A stretch of DNA of 53,378 nt from NCBI GenBank assembly GCA_026394715.1, contig JAPKXR010000219.1:1-53378 (forward strand), read 5' to 3'. The position numbers and the translations under genes were made by a program. Below the pieces are notes generated by a model. That model had not been told where the DNA came from. It saw only the letters and a list, made by a program, of their open reading frames with translations, and did no database searches. This document shows, one piece after another, positions 2,242 to 16,895 of the stretch. The DNA comes from Methanomicrobiales archaeon. GTDB lineage: Archaea > Halobacteriota > Methanomicrobia > Methanomicrobiales > Methanospirillaceae. Numbering within the stretch: position 1 is the stretch's first letter; every line of letters begins with the position of its first letter.

Positions 2242-3630
2242 ATGGCGCTCTTGATATTCGATGACATGCTGGTCCTGCTCCAGATGATCTGTGTCATCGT
2301 CGTGGCCGCTTACCTCCTTACCCGGTGTCGTATCTTTACCGATGTACTTGAAGGTCATCCGACCGTAAAAGCCCAGGTCCTGCTGACACTGGTATTTGGT
2401 GCACTTTCAATATACGGGACCATGTCCGGTATCACGGTCCTCGGTGCCCCGGTCAACGTCCGTGACCTCGGGCCGATGGTTGCAGGTCTCACGTGTGGTC
2501 CCTTTGTCGGCCTTGGAGCCGGCCTTATCGGTGCAGCCTATCGCATGATGCTCGAAGGTTTTACCGTCTATGCATGTTCGCTTGCCACGGTACTCGCGGG
2601 GCTGTTCGGAGGCCTGATCTGGCTTTTAAATAATAAAAAATTTCCCGGGATCCGCATTTCGGTTGAATTTGCGGTCATGATGGAGGGACTCCATTTGCTC
2701 CTCGTACTTGTTATCGCCACCCCGTTTGCCATGGCCCTTGCATTGGTATCCGCCGTGGCGGTCCCGATGATCGTTGCCAATGCGTTAGGGATGTTCATCT
2801 TCTCATTTATTATCACAAATCTCCAGGAGGAGCGAAAGACCAGGGGAGAACGCGATAATTATCTTCGTGATATCGAGCGAAAAAATACAGAACTTGCCAT
2901 TGCCGCTGATATACAGAAGAGTTTCCTGCCATCGGAGATTGAACCACTTATCGGTTTTGACATTGCGGCAATGAGCATCCCTGCAAAAGAGGTCGGAGGA
3001 GATTTCTTTGACGTGATCCCATTTGCCGTGGTACCTGCAAAAAACCACAGGGCAGGTATTATGATTGCGGATGTCTCGGGAAAAGGGATCCCCGCTGCCC
3101 TGTTCATGGCGCTATCACTGGTTATTATGAGGGTTAATTCACTCTGGCACCCTCATCCGGCAGATGTGCTCCGGGGCGCAAACGATATCATCGCCGAGGA
3201 TTCAAAGACCGGGATGTTTGTTACACTCTTCTACGCGGTGATCGATTGTGAACTCCGCCAGGTTACCTATGCCAACGCCGGCCATAACCCCCCGATGGTG
3301 TACCGTGCCGGGACCGGGGTGATCGAGGAGCTCGGGACAACGGGGGTTGCGCTTGGTATTATGGACCTGGCAACGTACACTGAACAGGTGTGTGTACTTT
3401 CCCCTGGAGATATTTTACTTCTATATACTGACGGTATTACCGAGGCAGATAACGAAGCGAATGACATGTTTGGAGAAGAACGACTGCGTGAAGGTTTAAT
3501 CCGGTACCATGAACTTTCATCCTGCCTGATAATGGATTCAGTCCTGCGTGATGTGCGGGCTTTTGCAGCTGGTTACCCCCAGTCGGATGACATCACGCTG
3601 ATGGTGCTCAAGGCAGTGGAAGACAAATGA
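2242..3630 (+). CDS. Membrane-bound SpoIIE/PP2C-type serine phosphatase with 5TM-LytS-like sensor domain
   Basis: A 462-residue protein. Residues ~8-195 are a multi-helix membrane domain whose NVRDLGPMVAGL and GPFVGLGAGLIGAAYR stretches match the 5TM-5TMR_LYT receptor type. Residues ~195-225 are a charged helical linker. Residues ~235-460 are a SpoIIE-family PP2C phosphatase with metal-ligand motifs VGGDFFD (251-257), DVSGKG (277-282), YTDGITEA near 393 and SDDIT near the end. It should dephosphorylate the STAS protein encoded divergently at 1639-1974 in response to a membrane signal. The RsbW-like kinase gene follows after 34 bases. The start has no obvious ribosome-binding site but lies next to a stem-loop. 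Confidence 0.9.
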   Translation: MALLIFDDMLVLLQMICVIVVAAYLLTRCRIFTDVLEGHPTVKAQVLLTLVFGALSIYGTMSGITVLGAPVNVRDLGPMVAGLTCGPFVGLGAGLIGAAYRMMLEGFTVYACSLATVLAGLFGGLIWLLNNKKFPGIRISVEFAVMMEGLHLLLVLVIATPFAMALALVSAVAVPMIVANALGMFIFSFIITNLQEERKTRGERDNYLRDIERKNTELAIAADIQKSFLPSEIEPLIGFDIAAMSIPAKEVGGDFFDVIPFAVVPAKNHRAGIMIADVSGKGIPAALFMALSLVIMRVNSLWHPHPADVLRGANDIIAEDSKTGMFVTLFYAVIDCELRQVTYANAGHNPPMVYRAGTGVIEELGTTGVALGIMDLATYTEQVCVLSPGDILLLYTDGITEADNEANDMFGEERLREGLIRYHELSSCLIMDSVLRDVRAFAAGYPQSDDITLMVLKAVEDK

Positions 3631-15056: not shown

Positions 15057-16748
15057 TCATACGACAAATACTTTTTTTATCAGGCCGTCTTTCATGATCG
15101 AGATCTTTCCACCACTTTGCGAGACAACAAATCCGATCGCACTTGTCATCTGGCTGATCCCTGCCACTGATGAGTGCCGTGTACCATAACCTTCCGGAAT
15201 TTTCAATTTCAGGTTATCGATGATGAAATGTCGCCCGGATGCCACGATAAATCCATCTTCCCTGATTACGAACGCCCCGTCCATCGTGGCCAGCCCCTTG
15301 ATTATCTCAGTATTATTTGGATTCGTGATAAGCCGCTTCTCTGCATCCTGGCCTGCAAATGAGTTGATGGTGCATTCCCTTGAATGGGCCATGACAGAAT
15401 CCGTATCTCCGATTACAAATGAGGTGCCAATCCGGCGCCCTTCATGTCCATCCCGGGAGATCTCCACGCAGAGGTGGAACACCGAGTCAAACACATCTTC
15501 GTTCACCCGGGTACCCTTCAGTACTGAATACTTCCAGGGGTCAGAACGGATCTGCCCCGATTCCCGTGGCTCCTGCCCGGTTATATCCTCGCCAAGACAG
15601 AGCATTCCCGATAGTTTTCGTTCCGCATCAATGAGCGGGAGAATTTTCCATGCAACCCAGAACTTCTCCCCCGATTTTTTCGTATTCTCAAATGCATGAA
15701 CGGTATAGCCGTCCATGCAAAAGACCGGGTCGTTGATCATTGCGATCATTTCTCCCGCATACCGGGAATGTTCGGGGACGATGGTGCCGACCAGGTTTTT
15801 CCCGGTTATCTCCCCGACCCGGTACCCAAATACTTCCGTGGCACGGGAGTTGGCGTGGGTAATTATCCCTTCGTCATCTGTTGTAATGACAATCCCCGCG
15901 ACCCTGGCAATGGCATCATCAAATGACCCGGAAAGAACCCACTCTGATGGAAAGATCGGCCCTGCGTCATTGCAGTCCCTGCCCGGGTCATCTTTTCGTT
16001 CAACAATCATGAGGTGGCCTTTCATCGGGTCGAAACCATCGAGTCTTCTAACCCTGATCGTGCAAAGGACACCTTTACCTTCTTTCGTAGCGAGGTGGTG
16101 AACTGCACAATGCCACCCTGCCTCTTTCTTACCTTTGAATATTGTGCGTGAAAACTTCGCATATTCCTCCGGTGAACAAAAGAGGTCAGGTAACTCCATC
16201 GCCCTTGCAGCCCCCCCGGAATATCCAAGGAGTTGTGCGAGGTGCGGGTTTATTTTCAGAATTTCACGCCCGGAAAAAAGAGCGATCCCTATCTGGCTCC
16301 CATCGAGTACATCGAATATCTCCATGTTTTCCAGTTCATGTTCCCGGTTCAGGAAATGTTCCCGGATGTACCGGGTGATATATCCGGATGCAGCAGAATA
16401 AAGGTCATTCCTATTCCGGAAACCTGAAAGGTTATACTCAGTCGAGCTTTCATTGGTTTCCATCACGAGTGTTACATCCCGGAGATATCCCTGCCGGTTT
16501 TTTTGGGCGTCCACAGGAATAAGGTCCACGTAGAGCAGTGATGCACCAGTTGTTTTCGCCGTGTCCCGAACGTTGCAGGTCACCGGTTCCCTTCCACAGA
16601 CTAAAATGAGGTGGTAGATACGGTCTGTCATTTTATTGACCGCATTCACGGAAGAAAAAGCCCTGTCAACCTGTATCCCGGGTAACCTGACCAGCGATGA
16701 TAACAACACCTTGTGGAACGCCTGGGAATTTTCGATGAAGAGGACCAT
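15057..16748 (-). CDS. PAS-domain sensor with C-terminal DisA_N-type diadenylate cyclase domain
   Basis: A 563-residue soluble protein. Residues 1-125 form an alpha/beta region (start MVLFIENSQAF) reminiscent of a degenerate receiver. Two PAS domains follow at about 130-245 and 265-380; the second has GIITHANSRATEVFGY and a final LGEDITG. The C-terminal ~155 residues match the DisA_N diadenylate cyclase fold: MDGAFVI (DGA at 490-492), then GTRHSSVAGIS (RHS at 524-526 in place of the canonical RHR) and VVSQSGGKIS. The domain makes c-di-AMP from two ATP in bacteria and in archaeal DacZ. The architecture suggests PAS-controlled c-di-AMP synthesis. The replaced third residue of the RHR motif leaves activity uncertain. 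An in-frame TTG at 16787 would add 13 residues. Confidence 0.82.
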   Translation of the reverse strand: MVLFIENSQAFHKVLLSSLVRLPGIQVDRAFSSVNAVNKMTDRIYHLILVCGREPVTCNVRDTAKTTGASLLYVDLIPVDAQKNRQGYLRDVTLVMETNESSTEYNLSGFRNRNDLYSAASGYITRYIREHFLNREHELENMEIFDVLDGSQIGIALFSGREILKINPHLAQLLGYSGGAARAMELPDLFCSPEEYAKFSRTIFKGKKEAGWHCAVHHLATKEGKGVLCTIRVRRLDGFDPMKGHLMIVERKDDPGRDCNDAGPIFPSEWVLSGSFDDAIARVAGIVITTDDEGIITHANSRATEVFGYRVGEITGKNLVGTIVPEHSRYAGEMIAMINDPVFCMDGYTVHAFENTKKSGEKFWVAWKILPLIDAERKLSGMLCLGEDITGQEPRESGQIRSDPWKYSVLKGTRVNEDVFDSVFHLCVEISRDGHEGRRIGTSFVIGDTDSVMAHSRECTINSFAGQDAEKRLITNPNNTEIIKGLATMDGAFVIREDGFIVASGRHFIIDNLKLKIPEGYGTRHSSVAGISQMTSAIGFVVSQSGGKISIMKDGLIKKVFVV

Positions 16749-16895
16749 TGACAAGTACGATTCACAACCTTTGCTCAACAAACGCAAATATCTGATAGAT
16801 TGTCAGACAGATAAAAATGTATTAGATTTACCGGGACAGGATGGCAGACCGGCGTCATACGGGTGTCAGATACATTTTCTGAAGGTAATTGCAGT

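Follow-up and report, generated by a model that had tools for sequence, protein, structure and literature searches.

A predicted sensor-regulated diadenylate cyclase of pseudo-receiver–PAS–PAS–DAC layout in a methanogen of the family Methanospirillaceae

The gene described here, located in a 53,378-nt stretch of archaeal DNA (the window), probably encodes an active, soluble, sensor-regulated diadenylate cyclase, as judged from its sequence and from structural models. The predicted protein consists of an N-terminal pseudo-receiver, two PAS domains and a C-terminal diadenylate cyclase (DAC, DisA_N) domain. Cyclase activity is made probable by a DAC domain that scores above its cut-off, by the fold matches of this domain, its retained ATP-binding side chains and its strong constraint, by a genome devoid of DacZ, and by relatives in which a protein of this layout is the sole DAC. 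In the following, the host family is that of the source genome (Methanospirillaceae), and the order is Methanomicrobiales. The features of the gene are listed below.

15057..16754, minus strand: pseudo-receiver–PAS–PAS–DAC gene, starting at ATG 16748 (563 aa) or, more likely, at the conserved TTG 16754 (565 aa)
16344..16748, minus strand: predicted N-terminal pseudo-receiver, residues 1-135, without the phospho-acceptor Asp (Response_reg matches of homologues; family profile)
15993..16331, minus strand: predicted PAS domain 1, about residues 140-252 (PAS_8, best stretch 147-197; PAS elements in the model)
15573..15902, minus strand: predicted PAS domain 2, about residues 283-392 (PAS_9, 2.9e-16, residues 285-390; TIGR00229, 9.4e-16)
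15072..15530, minus strand: predicted DAC (DisA_N) catalytic domain, about residues 407-559 (PF02457; AlphaFold model; PDB fold matches)
15273..15281, minus strand: DGA motif with the catalytic Asp490
15171..15185, minus strand: GTRHS motif, residues 522-526, with Ser526 aligned to the third residue of RHR in bacteria
15114..15122, minus strand: SQS, residues 543-545, counterpart of the bacterial (V/I)SEE
16791..16807, minus strand: inverted repeat TCTGACAATCTATCAGA, possible operator, upstream of the start; together with an adjoining TATA-like stretch it spans 16791-16820

The interval originally predicted for the gene, 15057-16748, corresponds exactly to an intact ORF of 563 aa on the minus strand (ATG at 16748, stop codon ending at 15057, no internal stops), although its 5' end probably lies slightly further upstream. 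A TTG two codons before the ATG, at 16754, is conserved in all four orthologues compared (the window copy, L004, L005 and L006), and two of the last three lack the ATG at 16748, so that translation probably starts at TTG 16754. Full-length orthologues with 79-85% identity to the window protein occur in three related genomes, which places the gene far beyond chance. Among the four orthologues, dN/dS was 0.05-0.10 for the DAC domain, 0.10-0.15 for PAS2, 0.13-0.21 for the pseudo-receiver and 0.14-0.27 for PAS1; the DAC is thus the most constrained domain and PAS1 the least.

Just downstream of the T-rich TATA-like stretch, the inverted repeat TCTGACAATCTATCAGA is kept in the four orthologues, in contrast to the diverged sequence farther upstream. 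It has a single match within the window and is possibly the binding site of a regulator. A response regulator and a histidine kinase upstream of the gene in two orthologous loci (L004, L006) were considered as a functional clue and dropped, as they have no counterpart upstream in the window. Elsewhere in the window, two adjacent half-length sulphur transport genes (YeeE/YedE-type, PF04143; 12518-13126 and 13119-13694) overlap by a few bases, and a further signalling protein (2242-3630) carries a 5TM-5TMR_LYT membrane domain fused to a SpoIIE-type phosphatase.

The original prediction placed the DisA_N motifs DGA (residues 490-492) and GTRH (522-525) behind two PAS domains; both motifs and both PAS domains (PAS_8 and PAS_9 matches) were recovered, but a third, receiver-like domain at the N-terminus had been overlooked. 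In a Pfam search of the protein, residues 1-135 of the window copy gave no match. Homologues of the same layout do match Response_reg (L001, 7.4e-11; L014, 2.2e-12; L086, 8.6e-9), and a profile built from 38 family members aligns this region with the receivers of NtrC1, CheY and DrrD. Residues 1-135 therefore read as a conserved pseudo-receiver, with a receiver fold supported through the family. At the phospho-acceptor position of the alignment, 25 of the 44 members have Tyr, and none has Asp. A phosphorylation-driven response regulator was ruled out on these grounds, and the sequences indicate that the domain cannot take phosphate in the usual way.

In a fold search with the full-length model, PAS matches dominated, and the PAS region matched DosP, FixL and PpsR. 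The solved PAS sequences nearest to the two domains are those of Aer and DosP, a likeness taken as a lead only, with neither haem nor flavin assigned. The full-length model is weak in domain arrangement (pTM 0.41), so PAS gating lacks structural support. The N-terminal domains of an active cyclase might serve only for assembly or partner binding, with no PAS ligand, the c-di-AMP level being set by the amount of protein or by its partners. We regard this as rather unlikely. It fits a pseudo-receiver without a phosphate site, a PAS1 that is the least constrained domain and PAS domains with no evident cofactor; however, the core residues of PAS2 are conserved family-wide and PAS2 is more constrained than PAS1. 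Moreover, the same cyclase has repeatedly been joined to differing input modules (PAS, PKD–TM and TPR–TM), which favours sensing.

The DAC domain itself was readily recognized by Pfam (PF02457, residues 433-555, E = 4e-18), with 65.6 bits against a curated cut-off of 27. An AlphaFold model of the domain, built with 86 archaeal DACs, had a mean pLDDT of 92.6. Among the best 50 PDB matches listed for this model, all 50 were diadenylate cyclases (TM about 0.5-0.65), including CdaM, CdaA/DacA, DacM, DisA and the Bacillus cereus protein 2FB5. A structural mismatch to DisA_N, which would have told against the original prediction, was thus not encountered, and the DAC fold is borne out.

The ATP site of Listeria CdaA comprises ten residues, of which Leu31, Asp71, Thr102, Arg103, His104, Ser122 and Glu124 contact ATP by their side chains, and Leu88, Gly101 and Glu123 by the main chain; the third RHR residue is not among the ten (PMC7288161). 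The window protein retains the ATP-holding side chains in Asp490, Thr523, Arg524, His525 and Ser543. Among these, Asp490, Arg524, His525 and the phosphate-binding Ser543 are invariant across the 86 DACs. At the remaining positions compared, the equivalent of Glu124 is Ser545, as in 82 of the 86 archaeal DACs (Haloferax DacZ included), that of Glu123 in the SEE motif is Gln544 (Gln in 43/86), and Leu31 of the GALI segment is replaced by Ser.

The presence of Ser526 in place of the bacterial-type RHR Arg had suggested a tuned cyclase, a nucleotide sensor or a dead receptor. This doubt proved unfounded, since Arg at this position does not define archaeal DACs. The 86 sequences carry Ser (26), Ala (12), Met (11), Arg (9), Leu (9), Val (8), Asn (6), Ile (2) and a few others. 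The Haloferax dacZ was located by means of published H. volcanii primers (PMC6741144), and the genomes with an exact primer match were read; the encoded motifs are DGAF and GARHM, i.e., with Met at the third position, and H. volcanii DacZ produces c-di-AMP with Mn2+ (PMC6741144). In Mycoplasma bovis CdaM, replacement of all three RHR residues by Ala abolishes activity (PMC13022847), but as they were changed together, the result says nothing about the third residue alone. Given the archaeal variability, the Met of Haloferax and the absence of this residue from the CdaA ATP site, Ser526 cannot be taken as a sign that the enzyme is dead or tuned, and this interpretation was excluded.

The source genome (98% complete) contains three DACs: the window gene, a paralogue (L001) that is a second pseudo-receiver–PAS–PAS–DAC, and a signal-peptide–PKD–PKD–TM–DAC protein (L003). 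The sensor domain DacZ_A (PF21754) was found neither in the window protein nor in the whole genome, which is thus without a canonical DacZ. The original prediction had contrasted the protein with simple archaeal DacZ and had proposed a look for a separate canonical dacZ; the contrast holds, and all three DACs lack DacZ_A. Directly upstream of the PKD–PKD–TM–DAC gene lies a frame (L153:7809-9353, contig C141) whose sequence looks like that of a polyphosphate:AMP phosphotransferase with two domains.

Across the order, PF21754 was detected in 77 of 119 genomes, 76 of them from other families and one (G003) from the host family. Among the genomes listed without it, 20 of 20 belong to the host family, including that of the window; the other 22 without it fall outside this listing. 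A DAC is present in 75 of the 81 host-family genomes and in all 49 of the good ones. In a tree of 121 DAC domains, made by a quick method from few columns, the sensor-fused forms branch apart from DacZ (SH-aLRT 99). Over most of the host family, the sensor-fused group apparently took the place of the enzyme usual in archaea, although the loss of DacZ is incomplete, since two genera (g4 and g6; L077, L096) retain a DacZ-like DAC. In nine relatives (94-99% complete) whose layout was checked (G004, G011, G021, G023, G025, G035, G041, G059 and G072), a pseudo-receiver–PAS–PAS–DAC is the only PF02457 protein. As dacZ is essential in H. volcanii (PMC6741144), such a sole DAC is, by analogy, likely to be active.

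Other DAC-related observations were made in the course of this comparison. Long open frames around DacZ in L121, L122 and L125 were rejected as architectures, the real start lying far downstream and the rest not being protein-like. One very divergent DAC (L085; G013:C1:716525-716872), with GARHIFAA in a 339-aa frame and an extremely long tree branch, was possibly transferred from elsewhere. A second, weaker-scoring DAC type, in frames of 212-227 aa, occurs in other families of the phylum (G086, G089, G097, G102, G105, G112 and G144), in several of these genomes beside a DacZ-like DAC. In each of five genomes from four genera (L152, L157, L158, L159 and L160), a gene for a DEAD-box RNA helicase, named by its motifs, immediately precedes the main pseudo-receiver–PAS–PAS–DAC gene on the same strand.

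Two observations could speak against activity of the window copy, namely the changes Glu123 to Gln and Leu31 to Ser. In addition, the window paralogue does not represent the main form in the family and could have become inactive, with activity retained in L001. Its DAC might then be catalytically dead and act as an ATP or c-di-AMP receptor, or as a regulatory partner of the active L001. With three DACs, the genome could afford such a non-enzymatic copy, and the receiver-like domain of the window protein is more diverged than that of L001. Nevertheless, every invariant residue is retained, half of the archaeal DACs in the comparison have this Gln, sole-DAC members included, and in CdaA Glu123 works by its main chain (PMC7288161). 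Constraint also peaks in the DAC domain, though that of a receptor would be constrained too. On these grounds a dead DAC appears unlikely. That the product of the subfamily is some nucleotide other than c-di-AMP is very improbable: the Ser at the adenine-side Leu31 position and the separate branching from DacZ might suggest it, but Leu is missing from this position in the DacZ proteins of the order as well, and the host family seems to use the subfamily in place of DacZ.

The preferred reading, an active cyclase under sensory control, can be viewed against the other input modules with which this DAC is combined. A signal-peptide–TPR–TM–DAC protein occurs in a genus of the host family (g13; L008), and PAS–PAS–DAC proteins extend beyond it to families f4 and f6 (L166, L170, L184). 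DAC domains of the same subfamily also form the C-terminus of TrkH K+ transport proteins from two genera of f4, another family within the order. Three such fusions are given below.

L112, 151-2211 (G128): TrkH–DAC; TrkH 1.3e-47, DAC 4.6e-16
L179, 368-2410 (G533): TrkH–DAC; TrkH 2.4e-45, DAC 7.7e-18
L180, 112-2079 (G317): TrkH–DAC; TrkH 3.2e-48, DAC 2.3e-9; the retrieved sequence stops within the DAC

These proteins share 61-67% identity over the junction and the DAC part, and the genome of L112 additionally has DacZ. No TrkH was found in the source genome, so the TrkH link rests on relatives. We lean, without strong conviction, towards a scenario in which DacZ, near-universal in the order, was mostly lost in the host family and c-di-AMP synthesis was handed to sensor-fused cyclases, either cytoplasmic (pseudo-receiver–PAS–PAS) or with extracytoplasmic PKD or TPR modules, while a sister family fused the cyclase to TrkH. 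The messenger would then be made by sensors and, in one case, by a transporter.

Among named families, DacZ/CdaZ (NF041371; Pfam DacZ_A plus DAC; Haloferax volcanii DacZ) is the nearest to the window DAC (2e-24, model positions 114-259). The score of 86.4 bits covers the DAC part only and does not reach the equivalog threshold of 430 bits. The two share the catalytic residues and a variable third motif residue, but the window protein has a pseudo-receiver–PAS–PAS region in place of the DacZ_A (PK_C-like) sensor domain, and its DAC branches apart. The bacterial enzymes CdaA/DacA, CdaM, CdaS and DisA have the same DAC fold and the DGA and GxRH motifs; in contrast, their partners are TM helices or a DNA-binding domain, the third motif position is Arg, and Glu-Glu follows the Ser. 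Bacterial PAS-GGDEF and REC-PAS-GGDEF diguanylate cyclases also place receiver and PAS inputs before a dinucleotide cyclase that is active only as a pair. They are alike in principle, but their catalytic domain and product are unrelated, and the receiver of the window protein lacks the phospho-acceptor.

PAS pairs commonly dimerise, and the simplest model would be a dimer in which the state of the PAS domains sets the pairing of the DACs. DAC domains act as face-to-face pairs (PMC7288161). The chains would pair through their N-terminal domains, and the two PAS domains, on sensing a ligand or a redox state, would change how the two DAC domains face each other, and hence the rate at which two ATP are converted to c-di-AMP. 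The product may then act on RCK_C-type ion transport proteins. Since the genome has two further DACs and no DacZ, the window protein probably adjusts the c-di-AMP pool together with L001 and the membrane-anchored L003. The rest of the pathway in this genome possibly includes an RCK_C ion channel with TrkA_N and TrkA_C (L141), a TrkA_N–TrkA_C protein (L140), a TrkA_C frame adjacent to a Na/H exchanger (L139) and a TrkA_N–DHH–DHHA1 protein (L145:663-2270, contig C307). The last may be a phosphodiesterase acting on c-di-AMP or pApA, equipped with a nucleotide-binding sensor domain of its own.

No description of PAS–DAC or TrkH–DAC proteins in methanogens was found in the literature searched, which did not extend to Galperin's 2023 survey. 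The latter reportedly covers DAC domain architectures and may already list that of the window protein; the Pfam name DacZ_A likewise implies that archaeal DACs have been surveyed before. The new archaeal sensory route originally proposed is better cast more broadly: rather than one odd gene, it concerns a family-wide subfamily of possibly catalogued architecture.

We know of no established input to archaeal diadenylate cyclases. Even in bacteria, the signals that set c-di-AMP levels are largely unknown (PMC11323494). The union of sensors and cyclase on one chain, apparently as the sole DAC of several near-complete methanogen genomes, makes the question of input directly testable. K+ uptake, which c-di-AMP is well known to target, is linked to this subfamily by the TrkH–DAC fusions. 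If the proposed function is correct, these methanogens could tie c-di-AMP directly to a sensed cue.
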